From the NCBI GenBank assembly GCA_009602725.1, contig WELB01000157.1, positions 36,016 through 56,970 of the forward strand: a stretch of DNA of 20,955 nucleotides, given 5' to 3'. A model generated the notes under the pieces. It searched no databases. It saw only the letters and a program-made list of their open reading frames with translations, and was not told the DNA's origin. A program made the translations under genes and the position numbers. Position 1 is the first letter of the stretch. Each line of letters starts with the position of its first letter. Source of the DNA: Spirogloea muscicola (Eukaryota > Streptophyta > Zygnematophyceae > Spirogloeales > Spirogloeaceae). Of this stretch, positions 1,550-14,580 are shown one piece after another.

Positions 1550-1805
1550 CTATGAAAAGCCAGCCCCGATACAGATAGGCAAGGTCCTTAGGGGCCGAAA
1601 AGAAAGAAAGCGCGGCCAGAAAAAGAAAAGCGCTGCAACACTTAAGCAAGTATTGAGGGCTGTGAAGCGTGTGGAAAAGAGGACGTGATTTCCCCCAAGA
1701 GAGAAGGCGCGCGGGGCGCATGAAGTGAAAGGGAGGCCAATTCAAGCCACTATTGGCGAGCACGTCTCTGTGCACAGCCAGCCCGGAAAAAGTTTACAAG
1801 GCTCA
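1550..1805 (-). mobile_element. LINE 3'-UTR/tail debris, minus strand
   Basis: The tail motif lies at 1697-1750 on the minus strand (TTGGCTTGAATTGGCCTCCC, then CGCGCGCCTTCTC). Hairpin-module copies lie at about 1554-1601 and 1770-1805 (GGGCTGGC next to a CCTTGT element). The pieces are inverted relative to the main LINE and directly abut its 5' side. No coding part of this copy is recognised, so it looks like UTR only. Confidence 0.6.
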
Positions 1806-2044
1806 CTTTGGAAGCGCTCACTTCGTCCGGGGCCCGGGCTTCGACCGCCCTGCTCCCGCCCCGATCCGCATTGGTGGACTGGCTCCCACTGCACGTTTTC
1901 CTTGTGCGGCTACTCGCGGAAGTCATGGCGAGTAGTTTCGCGATTCTTTGCCGTGCGACCGGGCCCCCTTGTCCATGACCCCCTTGCTCCCTCAGACCTT
2001 GTCCACTCTTTTGGGCTGGCCTTTCGTGCCGGCAGAGCCGAGTG

Positions 2045-3771
2045 GAGTCTCGCCGCACACCCAGGAGTCCTACTCCCCTCCTTCGCTGATGACACCACCA
2101 TAGTCGGCCCTCCGGAAGTCGTGGCGGCGGCCTTCATCACCTTTGAGCTGCAGCTGGCCACCCTCGGCCTGTCCACCCGGGCGTCAAAGTGCGCGGCTAG
2201 GTCTCCCTGCGGCCTCCCACCCACCCCGACGCTGCCCATCGGCTGCCAGACTCCAGCAGATGGCTTCACCCTGCTGGGTATCCCCATCGGCCCGCCGTCC
2301 TTCGTGGAGGGGCAGCTGCGAGCCCGCCTTGCAGAGCATCTTCAGCCTGCGGCCCGGCTTCCCGAGCTGGACGATATGCAGCTGTCGTTGGCCATGTTGA
2401 CCAAGGCCGTTGGGCAGCGGCCCCAGTACTTGACGCGGGCCACTCCGCCATCCCCAGGGGCGTTGGCGGCGTACGCGGATTTTGACGCAGGCATGGTGGC
2501 GAGCCTGGCGGCCCTGGTGCGCCACCAGGGCTTCCTCCAGTCGCCAGCCGCTATCCACCAGGCGGCGCTACCCCTCAGCCACGGTGGTCTCGGCCTGCGT
2601 CCGCTCGCCCGTTCTTGCCGGGCTGCATACCTCGGCAGCTGGCCGCAGACTGCCGCCTCCGTGGCCCAGCGCTTCATGGTCCACGGCCGGCGTGCACTAG
2701 AGCAGGCGGTGGTCGAGGTCGACATGGGCGCGCTGCCGTTCCAGGTGTCGCTTCACTCCGCCCACCGGGAGCTGCTCGCGGCGCACCCGGACCTGGCAGG
2801 CCAGGTGGTCTCCTTTGCGCACCTCGCGCACACCGCTGACCTGCGCGTCCAAGCGCGCTTCGCGGCCGTGGTCGACAAGGTCGCCTACACCACCGCCGTG
2901 CTGTGGCTCCCCGAGGCCGACTTGCGCGGGAGCGCGAGACTTCAATCGGCCTCCTCCCCGGGGGCAGCGGCGTGGCTTCAGGCCCTCCCCATCAATGACG
3001 CCCTCACTCTCCCCGATGAGGTATTTCGCACTGCCGTCCACCGGCTCCTGGGACTGCCGCCTCCATGTCACCAGGGCGTGCGTCAGTGTGTATGCGGCGA
3101 GCGAGGGACCGAGTCCGGGAAGCTGGCCGCTCATGTTCTGCGCTGCGCCCACGGCGGCGAGCGGACAGCGGCCCACGACTGCCTCCGTGACGCGATGCAT
3201 GGCATCCTGGTAGAGGCTGGCTTCTCGGTTGCAGCGGAGCACTCCGGCGTCATGCCGCTCCAGGAAAGGGCCGACGGTCTCCACGCCCGTCGCGTAGACC
3301 ACCCCACAGGCCGGCGGGCCACGTCTTCTCCTGGACGTGGTGACCACCGACGCATACGACCGCTCACACTCAGCCCAATGTGACACCAAGGTTGGGTATG
3401 CGGTCGCCTGGGCCGCTCGGGCTAAAGAGCTCAAGTACGCCGACCATCCGTGGGAAGACGAGTTCTTCACGTTGGCAATTGACACCCATGGGGCGCTGGG
3501 CGCTCGGAGGCTCGAGCTGCTCACCCAGCTCGCCCGCCACACCATCGCCCATCGCTTCCATGGGGAGCCGGTAGACTTTCCTGCAGCCGAGTCGCTGGCG
3601 CAAGTGTATCGTATGCGCCTGGCCGTCTCGCTGCAGAGGCTATGGCCCGCGCGCTGCACCTTCGTGCTGGCAGAGCCCTCGCTGCTGCCTCTGGCTCTGG
3701 CCAGGGGACCCACTTCCAGGAGCCTAGCATCTCTGATCTGCGGCTGCTTAGCAGGGGTTACTTAGTGATTC
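2045..3771 (+). pseudogene. LINE RT/endonuclease ORF, truncated and frameshifted
   Basis: The first frame is open to 3383. It shows the RT catalytic motif FADD at 2082-2093 (the YxDD box), followed by GGLGLRPLARSC, typical of the region after RT in such elements. A zinc finger follows: Cys codons at 3087 and 3093, His at 3132 and Cys at 3144, with the R...HD residues that follow the finger in R2-type elements. The endonuclease core (LLLDVVTTDAYD, from about 3316) continues in a second frame, which requires a shift between 3298 and 3330. Comparison with the copies at 403-545 and 13707-13979 shows a second one-base loss near 3640, after which the tail (ALHLRAGRAL...LLSRGY) is in a third frame. 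The family stop TGA is TTA here. With two shifts, a lost stop and no N-terminus the copy cannot be functional. The clade is not decided; a zinc finger plus PD-(D/E)XK-like region suggests an RLE-bearing LINE. Confidence 0.85.
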
Positions 3772-3831
3772 GTAGCTCCTTTGTTTCTTTGTGTGCTTGT
3801 TTTTCTTAGCGCTTCCCCTGGCCCCCTTCTC

Positions 3832-3900
3832 GTACTCTGTTCTGTCTTTTTTGGGCTGGCTTTTCCAGCCGCTATCCTCGATGGGCGAGCACTTTCTTCC
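3832..3900 (+). repeat. LINE 3'-UTR hairpin module
   Basis: The stem GGCTGG (3854-3859), loop CTTTT and CCAGCC (3865-3870) are followed by CTCGATGGGCGAGCACTTTC. The same arrangement occurs at 14431-14475, where the stem is 7 bp with loop CCTTT, and in degenerate form elsewhere in the window. Its place just after the coding region of the LINE suggests an RNA structure in the element's 3' UTR. Confidence 0.65.
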
Positions 3901-5246: not shown

Positions 5247-8200
5247 TCACGATGCGCTTGTGACGACGGAAACTTGCGAGAGCCCGTCAGACAAATGTTG
5301 TATGTACATGGGGCTCATATGCGTCCCATCGAGCTCCAAGCCCTTTCTCAGTTTGCCTGCATTGAAGAACAACAACATCAGATGGAGGTGGCAGAACAAT
5401 ATCACCATTGTGTCCTCTATTCCTAGACGTGGAAGCAGACATGTTAATCATCCATAAGCAAAGAATTGCATCTGTTCTTGCAACACCAACCAAGCTCAAG
5501 TGTCCATGAGTGATGGTGAGTAAAAGCTCAGTGGAGATACTTCGCACAATACCTCTAATGCACAGCAAGTCTTTAAAGAAGTCCAACCAGTGCAACTTTC
5601 CCTGGAGCCGCTTGGTGGCTGCCAAAACCTTCGCCCTTAGAACGCGGTTGTAAATGGTGACCACTGGACGAGTGATGTCGAGCACCGGCGGCACAGGGTG
5701 AACAATAATTGTAAACCCCCTCTTTTCAATCAATCTCAAGAGCACATTGATGTAGATGTCAACAGTGACTTCGATGCCCTCCTCAACGTCCTGGCATAGA
5801 CACGATAAATGCATCCTCAGAGGCTCTTTCGTGACTAGCTAAAAAATGGCTAACAAGGACTGCTGAATGAGCAGGTGCAGGTCTGCATAGGGAGCCTGCC
5901 TTGTAGCGGCCTTTCTCGACCGAGACGAGGATGCCCTCCCGGCAGCACTACGATGTAACCTCATCGGCCAGGACGATGGGCGCACCTGATGGATGCACCC
6001 AAAGTAAGCAGCCTCGTTGCGGAAGATGGTCTTGTGGAGGGGCACCCTGGAGGCCAGTCTTGCGCGCTGCACTAGGCCTGCCATGAGCCGTGCCCGCTCC
6101 ACAGCTCCGCCGAGAAACAGGATCTTGACGACCGTGAAGAGGAGCGCCAGGACATCAAGCTGCTCCGACTGGTATTCAATAGATCCTTTGCCATTATCTG
6201 TGTGCTTTCCATCACTGCAAGCCGCGTTGTCACTGCTAGAAATGCGGCTCTGATGTTGATTCTCAGATTGCCCAGATTGCCCTCTTTCCTGCTTTGCTTC
6301 GTCTAGGACACTGAGAAGATTGAAGTCTGCAGGAACAGTCACTCTCGGGCGCACCTCATCTGCATCTTCTGACCTGAAATGCTTTTTCAGATCCAAAGCT
6401 TCATCGTCTTGCCCTGCAACCTCTAGTAATACCTGGCTCTTGTCTTCACTTATAAGCTGCCTGGCGTCAGCCCCCTTGGTAGACACTCTTCTGTCCTGCT
6501 CGAGGAGGAAGCCAATGTCGCTGCTCCCCCCCTTGATGCTAGATTGGTGGTCAGTACTTACAGGAAGGCCCTCGAGGAGCTGGACGATCGACCGCAGGGC
6601 CAGAGTCCCGAGTGCTATGGTCTCTTGGAGCTGGAGGAAGCGCAGCGCTTCTTGCAGGGCGTCTTCATGGCGGTTGCAGGTCTGATATGGCCACATAGCC
6701 GACGTTGGTAAGTAAGGTGTTATGATGTTTTCAGCAGATTTGTGTCAGGTGACTACGTCACAGAAGTAGCTAGCAAAAGCATGCCAAGGATGAGGGGAGT
6801 CTGCTGTCTTCGGCAACTGACGTTCACCTCCAATGTATGGATGAGATTGAGCGAGTATGATGCTGACTTGGGTTCAAGCTGGTAGCCCTTGTCATGAGCT
6901 CCACTGCTTAAGCCACCGCTGCCAAAATACCATTGGCATGAGCAATGTCAAATTTGCAGTACAATACCAAGAATGCATTTTTGCAATATAAGTACTCAAA
7001 ATCATGACAGATTTAGACTCATGTAAGACCCATATATGAACTCGAACCATGACTATCTAGACTCTTTGACCACAAACCAGACCCAAATGCCTTCTTTCAC
7101 ACTGTGTACATCTACGCACTATTTGGGCCTGCACACGGACAGCCCAAACACCAGCATGCACCAGTACTTTGATGCATGCTCCAAAATTCCAAAGCCGCGA
7201 AGCCACCATTCCTGGGCCCATAATTCTAGATCACTTCCACAAGCCCTCAGAGACAGGATAAGTACAGTCCTGCCTTGATATACTAACAATGTTATGATCT
7301 CAACGCAGCGAGGTGCCAAGGCTCTACCTCCTTGCTCCTTGATCATATTGGCTATGTAGAGAATGACCGGTGCCGACTGCTCATCTTCCACATCCTTTAG
7401 GTACCCAAAGAGCACATTGCGGCCACGCTCCTGTTGCACGAGCCCTGCAAGCTGTGAATGGATAGCCTTGCTTTTGTCCTTCCGCAAGACCACAAGCCGG
7501 AGCAATGCCCGCATGGCGTCGTCCACTAGATTGTTATCCTTGGCAATGGCAGCGTACTCGAGTATTGCGCTGACGTTGTCGTCCTCCTCCTTCAGTATGG
7601 CAGCAACTGGAGCAGCAAAGCATGTAAAGAAGCAACCGGCACATAATGTCATGCATGCTCCTTCCTGTAGCTGAGACAGTAGCTTTCGACCTCGATATCA
7701 AGCACAAGGTAATTTCACAAATACTTTCAGATGGTAACCAAATGCCAGTGCCAGGGTTTGCTGACCTATGTCATATGCGGGGCCCTTAATGCCCAAAGCA
7801 TAGAGGCACCGCGCAGAGGCCACCTCGAGGTTGTTTGCAGTAACTGGGCTGCCGATATCACCAGCTTCACTGCGGTCTATCTCATCTAGAGCAGTACTTT
7901 TGGTCTCAATGATGTTGTCCATCTTCTTCAGCAACAGGCTCAGGGCGCGCTTATATGCAGTGAGCGCTTTTTGGTGCTGCTTCAAATTTTCGAGGGCCTC
8001 TCCAAGCCTGCATTTGAGGTTATCATTGGGGCCAGATTGAGGCATCGGGAAATTGGGCTTAGGTACAATTGGAGATTATTTGTCATGCACTATATTCATG
8101 ACCAGGATATGGAATGTGAGACATACCTTGCATGGAAGAGCACGTCAGTAGAGTATGCAACAGTGCCCAGCTGAAAGTATGACATAGCGCGGCTGTATTT

Positions 8201-10239
8201 CTGAACAGCTAGTGCCATCGAACCTGCTCCATGTGCCCAAATGGCAAGCGTACAGCAACCAGGGCTGCAGTTCAGAGCTCAAAATCTAGAGTGTCAATTA
8301 AGAGCATACCATGCACCCGGCGTGAAAGAGTTGCACCGGCAATGTGTTCTGCTGATGCATGGACTATAAGCTTGTGTTTACCATGACATGTGTTTACCAT
8401 AGCCAATGGCTTACCAAGCCCGCGGAGGCAGACCTGCTGCTGCGGCGCAGCTTCCAGCATAGCCTCGAAGATTTTAGCAGCGCTCTGCAACATAGCAGCA
8501 TAGCTTCAGTCACATATGCAAGAAACAGGAACAGGAAGAGATAAGCTATTTCATATAAGTGCCTCAGGCATACTCAAAATCCTAGAGTATGCTTGACCTT
8601 ACAGGTGAAGGGGAAGAAGGCTACAGAAGGCAAGGCCTTCCTACAGAAGGCAACCTAACAGCAGGATGATGAGGTCAAAGGAAACCTCAGCATATCTGTT
8701 GGTAAGTGCTGCTTGCTATGCATGTCGCCATTCTTTACCTTGTACTTGCCTATTCTCTGAAGCCCCAATGCCTTGATAAGGATTTCCCGAAGAAAGGGCG
8801 CCAGCGTGGGCGGTGATTGATGAATCATCTGCAAACCACAGAATATCATAAGCATATTTGAAAGCCACAGATGCAACTTAATCAGCGGATATTGCAACGA
8901 AATTCCAGTCCAGTAGACCATCACCCATTGCTGAGCCCAACTCTGACCTGCAATAAAGATCCCAGCAATAACGTGATTGTCTGCAACTGACAGCTCAGAA
9001 GAGGAGTCTAGGGTGCCAGCTTGTCATACAAGATGAGGGTGGCATTAGCCCTTTCTTCAAAGCATGTACGGCCAGTGACACTCACCCTTGGCTTTGCAGG
9101 ACTTGCCGACACCCCCTTGCTGGCTGCAGAGCTTGTGCCATCAGTAACGCGCGGCAAGTATGATGTGGCCAGCTCTCCTGCAGATTGCATGGCTTTGCCT
9201 GTAGCTGCCCAATGCATGGATGAAAGAACAAGGCCCTCAGAAGCAGCAGCAACGTGAATGTCTCAGTGCAACAGTAAAGAGTCTGCTCTGTAAGAGACGC
9301 TATTTTGCACTTTTAAGGCCAGCACTTTGCAGGTCCCTGCAGTAATGCAGGCCGCAAGCACAGGATGCAAGGATCTGCTCGGCCAAGCCAAATCACTGCA
9401 AGCTGCTATAATTCACAATCCATTGGCAGGCCTGAGCAGATTGCAGTCTCAGAGGAGCCACAAGCTTGACCTTCAAGTGAAGTCACTTTGATGGGAGTCG
9501 ACGACAAGACCGCAAAGACATCTTCCCTGCAAGACCAAAGGATCTTGCAGGTGAGCATGGTCACTGTCACCTGCTACGAGCAGTCAGCCATACCCACACC
9601 TGCTTGAGGAAGCTGTCCAAGCTGCGTACAGCGCACCTGTCGTTTAGGCACTTGGCCACAGGCGTGGATGGCTCCAGCGCCACCTTCCTGGAACACTCAG
9701 CCCTTCACAGGTCAGAAGTGCACACTCCTGACCCCCACCGAGCGCGACAATATCTCCTAATTGCTAAGACCTGATTTAATCAGCTGAGTCATGACAATCA
9801 AGATCTCTTGGAATGCACCGGTCATTGAGAAGTGTGACGGAGGCCGGGTCCAGGGCAAGGCATCCGCTGGCGTGCTGCATAGAGATGGCGGCAGATAAGC
9901 TGAGCTGCACACCCACTATAACACTAGCAGCGACAAGGAGCAGAAGACTACGAGCTCCACATGCGAGTGATGCGCCTCAAGCAAAGCAAGGAGAGGTTCT
10001 ACGACCACTCACGAGCTCGTTGTAAGCCACAACGGCCTCCTGCAGCGGCGCCGCAGATGGAGAGAGCGGCGAGTCAGCCCCATCTGCAGCTGCAGAGCAT
10101 CTATGGCCGCCGGCTGGTGGAGCACACGCCCCACCTGACGAAGCTGGGCGACGGTCTGCAGGCCGCCGGCGGCGGTGTCGTCGAGCTTGGCCAAGTGGGT
10201 GTGCGCTGGCGGGCCGTCAAAGTGCACGTACAGCCGCAT
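5247..10239 (-). CDS. Ubiquitin-like / TPR / SGNH-hydrolase-like protein, 16 exons
   Basis: Exons (minus): 10239-10135, 10039-10013, 9874-9819, 9687-9598, 9526-9471, 9204-9086, 8828-8739, 8484-8415, 8223-8127, 8007-7739, 7606-7328, 6898-6828, 6681-5986, 5947-5900, 5790-5553, 5356-5247. They join in frame to 806 aa. Residues 1-63 resemble a beta-grasp domain: MRLYV strand, helix TVAQLRQEAVVAYNEL, then LDPASVTLLNDR. Residues about 180-450 hold TPR-like helix pairs (HARLGEALENLKQHQKALTAYKRAL region). A low-complexity polar stretch follows, then more helices. The C-terminus has REGILVSVEKGRYK, HPVPPVLDITRPV (722-734), LHWLDFF and the LDGTH motif (D780, H783), as in SGNH/GDSL-like domains fused to TPRs. 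The Gly-Asp-Ser block expected before REGIL is not found. Weak points: the 6898 acceptor, the 38-nt intron 5985-5948, and a GC donor at 5899. Substrate and function are unknown. Confidence 0.78.
8621..8653. repeat. Short direct repeat in an intron
   Basis: CTACAGAAGGCAA occurs at 8621-8633 and 8641-8653, within the intron between exons 7 and 8 of the TPR-SGNH gene. No function is evident. Confidence 0.75.
10013..10239 (-). other. N-terminal ubiquitin-like region (exons 1-2) and start codon
   Basis: The ATG at 10239-10237 opens a 35-codon first exon (MRLYVHFDGP...) ending at the donor CAG|GTGGGG. Exon 2 is only nine codons (EAVVAYNEL, 10039-10013) between CTGCAG and GTGAGT. I chose this start because the MRLYV opening is a typical first strand of a ubiquitin-like fold and no earlier in-frame exon was seen. 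Reading through the intron would leave the frame used by exon 2. Confidence 0.65.
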
Positions 10240-12299: not shown

Positions 12300-13058
12300 A
12301 TGGAGGGGTGCAGTATCTCAAGCTGAGCATATGCATGAGCAGGCAATGGTGGCTGCAGAACGAGGGAGCACGCGTACCCGAGGCTCGCCGCCACAGGGTG
12401 GCGCGGTGCCAGCCAATGACGCCGGGCGACGTGGGGTTGGAGGCTGTCACGCGGTGGTGGCCAGGGGGCGCGTCGCCGTCGTCCTGGGGGTGCGCCGACG
12501 AGCCCCTCCAGCGCCGCGCACGGTGCGACTGACTGGCTGCAACCGTCACGATGCGGCAGGCGCTGAGATGTTACCAGCAGAGCGCAGCGGCGGCATGCCG
12601 TGGCGTTGGCTGGCGAAGCCCGGTGCCGGAGCGGCATGGCGGTCATGGCGCCGTCGGGAGGAGTGCTGGCGCATCATGCGGCGGGGGACGCGGGAGGGCG
12701 GGCGCGGCGGGGCACCTGCGCGGCCGCCGTGGGCGGGGTGCGAGGGGCTGACCTCCACAGGCGTCGGGGGAGGGCCCCTCCTGCCGCCGCCTCAGGGACG
12801 ACAACGAGAGCCATCAGCGGGACATCAGGCAGGCAAGGCAGCAGCATTGGCGGCGGCGGCCGCGACGACGGCGGCGGCGGCGGCGGCGGGGAAGGNGCGG
12901 CGGAGGCGGCGGCAGCGGCGGCGCGAGAGCCGCCGAGAGGCGCGCCGCGGGGCCCGGGGAAATGCGTGTGTAATAAGAGATGGGGAGGCCATGTGTGGCC
13001 AAGTACAAAGGCAAGCACATTGGGCAAATGTACGTGACCTGCTGCTAAGCTGACCCGC
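12300..13058. other. GC-rich low-complexity region with GGC-triplet repeats and one N
   Basis: 12380-12960 is strongly GC-rich; 12846-12935 is largely GGC/GCG triplets and includes an undetermined base at 12896. Long open frames exist in several phases on both strands, which is expected from few AT-rich stop codons and is not coding evidence. No domain, intron pattern or recognised protein is seen. Confidence 0.55.
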
Positions 13059-14014: not shown

Positions 14015-14580
14015 GCACTCAGGCTCCCTCAGACCTTGTCCATTCCTTTGGGCTGGCCTTTCCCAGCCACCAGTCAATCTGGCCGCGCTTCTTTCTCTCT
14101 TCTTGCAAGAGCCGGCTCTCACCACCCATGGCTTCCTGTGGGCCTTACTGAAGGACCCTCATCTGTAGTACTTGCATCTGTAGTACGTCAGTCAGCGATT
14201 TCCGGCCCCATTGGACCTTGTCATCCATATCGGGCTGGCCTTTCTCCTTCTTCCAGAAGGCAGAGCCCTCGCTGCTGCCTCTGGCTCTGGCCAGGGCCAC
14301 TTCCACGAGCCTAGCATCTCCGACCTGCGGCTGCTTAGCAGAGTGATTTGTAGCTGCCTAGTTTCTCTGTGTGCTTGTTTTTCTTAGCGCTCCCCCTGGC
14401 CCCCTTCTCGTACTTTGTTCATTCTTTTTTGGGCTGGCCTTTCCAGCCCCTATTCTCAGTGGGCGAGCACTTTCTCTTTCAGAGGGCTCGCCCCCTGTGG
14501 AAGCGCTTACTTCCCCGCAGTAAGCAGCCTCTTTCCTGGCGAAGCCTCTCGCTCTCTCCTTGGGCAGGTGGCTGTATACC
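14015..14580 (+). mobile_element. LINE 3'-end/UTR mosaic
   Basis: Hairpin modules occur at 14022-14070, 14198-14250 and 14400-14475. A coding tail at 14258-14338 (GRALAAASGSGQG, SISDLRLLS) has lost eight bases over the RGY-stop. The UTR after it closely matches 3770-3900. The modules are in the same orientation but repeated, so this is either several stacked 5'-truncated insertions or unequal exchange. Confidence 0.7.
14431..14449 (+). other. Best-preserved 3'-UTR hairpin
   Basis: GGGCTGG (14431-14437), loop CCTTT, CCAGCCC (14443-14449): a perfect 7-bp stem. It is the cleanest of about ten related modules on both strands of the window. Confidence 0.7.

Follow-up and report, generated by a model that had tools for sequence, protein, structure and literature searches.

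The gene described here lies on the minus strand, between 9217 and 5247, of a 20,955-nucleotide stretch of DNA from the alga Spirogloea muscicola (referred to throughout as the window). It is a TPR gene of about eleven exons, and its last three exons code for the second half of an esterase domain of the SGNH type. The first half of that domain, including the nucleophile block, is absent from the gene; the relatives keep it, and only 38 nt, far fewer than in the introns nearby, occupy its place. We propose, with a probability of roughly 0.87, that this gap reflects missing DNA rather than a natural architecture. The cause of the gap, like the esterase activity of a putative intact protein, is something that we infer. 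Judging from the absent nucleophile, the gene as drawn presumably cannot make a working SGNH esterase, and as it stands it would be a copy, either damaged or mis-assembled, of a TPR-SGNH protein about which little has been described. The locus can serve to test the assembly, and the 38-nt 'intron' is unfit for gene sets or intron statistics unless RNA evidence supports it.

Structure of the TPR-SGNH gene

The gene model and two further features of the window are collected in Table 1. Exons 9 to 11 encode 131 residues, among them LDGTHMSP, followed by the stop codon, and exons 8 to 11 as modelled contain no internal stop. The TPRs lying N-terminal to the SGNH half match Pfam TPR_2 above its cut-off (E 4.9e-08) and align with the TPRs of bacterial relatives, the best alignment being with L131 (2e-09, blastp). 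The model is least certain at its start codon and in exon 1. The 806-aa product given in the initial annotation was not reproduced; its reading of exon 7 requires a non-AG acceptor, and canonical alternatives exist. The intron following exon 9 begins with a GC donor at 5899 (AAG/GCAGGC), which is the sole non-GT donor of the gene model.

Table 1. Features of the window; positions are counted from its first nucleotide
Feature	Position	Strand	Remarks
Exons 1-4 and introns	9217-9086, 8828-8739, 8484-8415, 8223-8127 (block 8008..9217)	-	Splice sites GT..CAG; TPR matches for joined exons 2-7
Exons 5 and 6, TPR region	8007-7766, 7606-7328 (block 7328..8007)	-	TPR_2 E 4.9e-08 and others
Exon 7 region, TPR unit apparently divided between two frames (AVELMTRATSLNPS, ASYSLNLIHTLE)	6828..6918	-	Likely 1-nt frameshift; canonical acceptor at 6863 or 6899
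Exon 8, final TPR part, low-complexity linker, then RNEAAYFGCIHQ	5986..6681	-	
38-nt stretch GTGCGC...TCGTAG, 61% GC	5948..5985	-	
Exon 9, CCREGILVSVEKGRYK, beginning of surviving SGNH half, then GC donor	5900..5947	-	
Exon 10, DVEEGIEVTVDIY...HPVPPVL...YNRVL...LDFF	5553..5790	-	
Exon 11, KLRKGLELDGTHMSP..., D..H pair of SGNH block V (LDGTHMSP), stop codon	5247..5356	-	
MSH4-like MutS gene	~18420-15000	-	MutS_V 3.6e-19, above cut-off; MutS_IV and MutS_III below cut-offs
Long GC-rich open frames	1689-3383, 3298-3765	+	Frame change near 3300

Absence of the first half of the SGNH domain

The initial annotation had noticed that no more than 38 nt separate the exon with REGIL from a TPR exon ending CIHQ, and that only CCREG precedes GIL, with the upstream frame reading E-V-T-S-stop. 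We confirm both observations in the sequence: exon 8 closes with ...YFGCIHQ at 5986, and exon 9 opens TGC TGC CGG GAG GGC (CCREG) at 5947. The motifs of the SGNH superfamily, as set out in PMC2824669, are GDS in block I, a Gly in block II, GxND in block III and D..H in block V. Absent from the gene are the nucleophile GxSH, the glycine block and GEID, which correspond to blocks I, II and III, and of GEIDCR only the C-R is left; the D..H of block V is present in exon 11. The earlier estimate of about 90 residues for the missing segment is about right: in all 12 relatives examined the spacing between GxSH and the Asp of GEID is 68 residues, and before GxSH as many as about 30 others are missing, depending on how CIHQ is aligned, for a total of about 90–100.

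Searching all six frames for G[DEN]S[HN], G.[ILV][DE][CVS]R or DSH gave five matches in the window, none of them suitably placed, and no match was obtained in these frames with a profile of the missing block (best E 3.7). In a control, the same profile recognises 10 of 10 relatives and gives the most divergent of them 22.3 bits, although one of the ten (L130) is the L019 gene, which is already in the profile, so that nine are independent. A profile of the remaining half, run on the same six frames, ranks the correct exon first, albeit weakly (E 0.022). On these motif and profile searches we reject the idea that the block lies on the opposite strand or at some other place in the window. A tandem paralogue as its source is likewise rejected, there being none in the window. 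Alternative donors for exon 8 give 14 donor/acceptor pairs that keep a frame, and none brings in the block.

We consider it very improbable that the block has its coding sequence at another place and joins the gene in some other way, whether from an unplaced exon, by trans-splicing, or from an exon too divergent to be seen. Nothing speaks for this directly. Read in a frame neighbouring that of CREG, the 38-nt stretch ends in YIVVL, at the position occupied in relatives by the strand that precedes FGEIDC, and these residues could be a remnant of that strand. However, we give YIVVL little weight because it was spotted after the fact; runs of four I/L/V/F/M residues occur at 0.4% of places in the window (173 of 41886). 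The block profile finds nothing in the six frames and yet recognises the control relatives, and the site is too small, with 38 nt set against some 90–100 codons.

Bacterial relatives of the gene

When bacterial and archaeal genomes were scanned for FGEIDCR, at least 117 stretches came back, many of them chance readings, and from the matches listed we chose by eye 19 relatives that have an EGI-like sequence after GEIDCR, the GEIDCR itself being demanded by the pattern. Against a profile of these 19 bacterial sequences the 131 residues of the window score 26.7 bits, in a match that spans the second half only, as compared with a maximum of 6.9 bits among the 1461 shuffles, out of 2000 generated, that received a score. 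The 19 aligned relatives share [GS][DE]SH, G.K..H, FGEIDCR, G, Y, P, N..L, D and D..H, and the surviving half matches them at Cys-Arg, Tyr, Asn, Asp and Asp..His. Two further alignments used below, of the whole domain (A1) and of the second half alone (A3), include the window's own sequence, which is therefore counted in their 'invariant' columns.

Because of this second-half score, together with TPRs that can be aligned with theirs, we regard the gene as a relative of bacterial TPR-SGNH proteins. Examples of these come from Methylococcales (L019), Alphaproteobacteria (L072 and L037) and Desulfurivibrio (L100), and have the form GxSH...FGEIDCR..EGI...VPAP...FN...D..H. The C-terminal part of the window gene is similar, with CR..EGIL, K, Y, (V)P.P, N..L, LD and D..H..P, and TPRs stand in front in those relatives that were inspected, as they do in the window. 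The layout expected in the initial annotation, in which a GxSH block and a GEIDCR segment follow the TPRs, is thus borne out by the bacterial proteins. They differ from the window gene in having the 68-residue segment from GxSH to GEID, with 17–27% identity over the rest, and in being intronless open frames.

In these relatives GEID replaces the GxND of the SGNH/GDSL hydrolases (Pfam PF00657, PF13472), and the one member tested, L019, falls below the Pfam cut-offs (19.3 versus 23.6 bits). We found no description of a TPR-SGNH family with GEIDCR for GxND in the literature searched; such a family is found in proteobacteria and their kin and in the alga of the window.

Retention of the first half among relatives

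The FGEIDCR scan selects for the very segment in question, and the A3 profile, containing the second half alone, was built to remove this bias. It matched 14 of 385 and 4 of 297 genomes, giving 19 matches, all bacterial, although three of them repeat known loci (L145 is L072, L160 is L100 and L158 is L139) and two, L149 and L159, come from one genome. The first half is present in all 19, and the serine is kept in 18; the motifs are G[DE]SH in 17, GDSL in one (L163) and GDGG in one (L155). The block profile recognises 17 of the 19 at E 1.9e-06 or better. L162 is weak in that profile (0.095), with GDSH in place upstream, and L163, which the profile does not recognise, belongs to a different SGNH family as a canonical GDSL protein, its first half being identified by motif only. 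The initial annotation had singled out orthologues naturally without the block as evidence against its reading; of the 19 second-half matches in the 385 + 297 genomes, all of them bacterial, 0 are without a first half.

L155, of alphaproteobacterial class, has GDGG in place of GDSH and is a natural serine-less member of the family; it retains the first half as a scaffold (27.1 bits to the block profile), whereas the window gene has lost all of it. With the whole-domain A1 profile 15 of 299 genomes were matched, and G[DE]SH is found in all 10 matches with E < 1e-19, one of which, L130, is again the L019 gene. The five weaker A1 matches hold GDS motifs at unchecked positions, namely GDSH in L142 and L144 and GDSI or GDSL in L140, L141 and L143. 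A few of the weak A1 and A3 matches belong to other SGNH families.

Other searches gave no relative. The A1 profile had no match in 199 genomes of the phylum of G003, a set without a positive control. Nor was a relative seen by tblastn of the surviving half against plasmids and phages, by protein search of genome contigs, or in eight genomes queried with the single algal sequence (one match, E 0.6). Viral contigs contained none by protein search, and the 11 loci that the GEIDCRE pattern returned from them included none by eye. PDB sequences gave one match at E 0.094 and no relative, and comparison of the half-domain with NCBIfam (best E 0.02, unrelated) and with Pfam likewise revealed none.

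Predicted fold of a complete relative

An AlphaFold2 model of the relative L097, made with 11 relatives, has a mean pLDDT of 89.6. Its best PDB match by Foldseek is 3p94 (E 1.6e-06), and 3mil, sialate O-acetylesterases and PAF acetylhydrolase (1bwp among the structures) are also matched. Most of the 50 matches listed are GDSL/SGNH esterases, the rest including designed scaffolds (9hi4-9hi6) and CgnD; the TM scores of these 50 to the query are modest, at 0.42–0.57, with an rmsd of 6–11 Å. The predicted model thus supports an SGNH fold for L097.

The first conserved Cys of the window gene aligns with Cys101 of the model. Before Cys101 lie strands 28–33, 44–47, 50–58 and 91–95, which are four of the six predicted, helices 64–68 and 74–85, and the invariant Ser35-His36, Gly61 and Gly97-Glu98-Ile99-Asp100. 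The part corresponding to what remains in the window has strands 143–147 and 188–190 and the Asp210/His213 pair. On this model it is unlikely that the window gene would yield a stable half-domain, let alone a catalytic one. The initial annotation had suggested a catalytically dead or repurposed domain, and we find no support for this: what has been lost amounts to four of six predicted strands together with SGNH blocks I to III, and the serine-less L155 still has its first half.

The 38-nt stretch

We compared the stretch with 15 introns, comprising the nine others of the TPR-SGNH gene and six, hand-placed and not all, of the MSH4-like gene. These are 109–409 nt long, and 14 of the 15 end CAG, as against the TAG (TCGTAG) that ends the 38-nt stretch. 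Its GC content of 61% compares with 42–50% in the nine other introns of the same gene; its pyrimidine fraction near the end, 0.45, equals the lowest value in the 0.45–0.75 of the others and is not distinctive. PMC3446292 gives, for the green alga Coccomyxa, 49% GC in introns, 59% in exons and a mean intron of 240 bp. For Arabidopsis (PMC6161759), two introns were verified of 30 predicted ones of 31–59 bp that were tested, both of them 59 bp. Splicing at GTGCGC..TCGTAG leaves the frame open, and without splicing the exon 8 frame runs to a stop at 5839.

One reading of these data is that the 38 nt are a real minimal intron and that the half-domain, attached to the TPRs, has been repurposed and works as a non-catalytic module. 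The splicing just mentioned keeps the frame, exon 7 can be brought into frame through an acceptor at 6863 or 6899, the pyrimidine fraction equals that of one other intron, and a 23-bp intron is listed in one green-alga annotation (PMC3890519). However, the length is outside the range of all 15 local introns, none of the 19 second-half matches is without the first half, which even the serine-less L155 keeps, and the part of the relative's model that would have been dispensed with holds four of six strands, two helices and the nucleophile. We therefore regard a minimal intron as very improbable, and the more specific proposal of a natural algal fusion of TPRs to an SGNH second half across a 38-nt intron, acting as a non-catalytic binding module, as slightly less probable still.

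We read the 38-nt stretch instead as a scar at which some 90–100 codons are missing, and not as a true intron. The right edge of the missing DNA is probably at the D/C codons of GEIDCR, because the likeness to DCREG ends just before the second TGC, and the left edge lies at CIHQ or beyond it.

Reading frame of exon 7

In exon 7 a TPR unit appears to be divided between two frames, its two parts standing a few bases apart. Joining AVELMTRATSLNPS and ASYSLNLIHTLE with an X gives 33.9 bits to the TPRs of L097 in a database of 26 proteins, a score reached by none of 200 shuffles of the AVELMTRATSLNPS part, while readings that stay in frame score 18.5 bits (acceptor 6863), 23.5 bits (acceptor 6899) and 26.6 bits (the frame of the initial annotation) against the same protein. 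A Pfam search of the exon 7 readings that were tried did not separate them. The better reading is a 1-nt frameshift, because AVELMTRATSLNPS completes a TPR unit, and a frameshift within this unit is likely. It is not proven, because canonical in-frame splicing exists: of 324 open splice combinations, 12 use the consensus donor 7327 with the acceptor at 6863 (CAG) or 6899, and this donor with either acceptor joins exons 6 and 8 in frame and skips AVELMTRATSLNPS. A frameshift in exon 7 need not, then, break the gene by itself.

Origin of the gap

The two mechanisms offered at the outset, an internal deletion and sequence dropped from the assembly, are the two that survive. We put the chance that an assembly or sequence error removed the block at a little under even. 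Under this proposal the missing DNA would have stood after exon 8 and ahead of the Asp-Cys codons of GEIDCR, with the 38 nt as the leftover scar; one or more exons with GxSH, the glycine block and GEID would exist in the organism and have been dropped from the assembly; and the 1-nt oddities in exon 7 and at a splice site of the MSH4-like gene would be base errors in that assembly as well. In that case the intact protein would be nothing unusual for an SGNH esterase fused to TPRs, and its triad would be Ser-Asp-His.

The MSH4-like gene lies upstream of the TPR-SGNH gene and is well preserved in its readable parts, with a junction (15810/15663) that stays open only when its acceptor is displaced from AG by one base. 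One-base faults in two adjacent genes suggest base errors in the sequence, although splicing oddities are a possible cause of both. Several observations go against an assembly error. The scar holds no run of N, and the frame oddities lie outside long homopolymers, in which assembly indels are commonest. Exon 7 has the in-frame route from donor 7327 to the CAG acceptor at 6863, and the fault in the MSH4-like gene rests on one splice site and on a presumed likeness to plant MSH4 motifs.

A real deletion accounts for the scar equally well. Here a genuine recent event would have inactivated this copy, perhaps together with the 1-nt frameshift of exon 7, leaving a young pseudogene or a broken allele, any transcripts of which would yield a truncated TPR protein or be degraded. 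We hold this to be a serious possibility, if a tentative one, to which we give clearly less than even odds. In keeping with it, two faults fall within one gene, presumably retroelement-like repeats lie within a few kb, the scar is free of N, and the 38 nt when unspliced lead into a stop. However, the surviving exons are otherwise undecayed and keep the residues conserved in relatives, so a deletion would have to be very recent, and the similar 1-nt fault in the MSH4-like neighbour fits base errors better than it fits two genes dying together. It is because the surviving exons are little decayed and the neighbouring gene is similarly faulty that we favour an assembly error over a deletion.

Other features of the window

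The PDB matches of the MSH4-like gene are MutS and MSH2/3/6. We call it MSH4-like from its motifs: it has DELGKATSS where most MutS proteins have DELGRGTS and in this resembles plant MSH4. A weak MutS_III match near 19337-19221 may belong to the same gene.

To judge by the motif FADDTTIVG, the long GC-rich open frames near the left end of the window look like the C-terminal portion of a reverse transcriptase of LINE type; they gave no reverse-transcriptase-type match in Pfam. One repeat occurs in three copies (327-546, 3622-3897 and 14259-14475), in both orientations and with 78–89% identity, and these copies are possibly the 3' parts of a retroelement. A GGC triplet array at 12849-12923 holds the only N of the window, at 12896.
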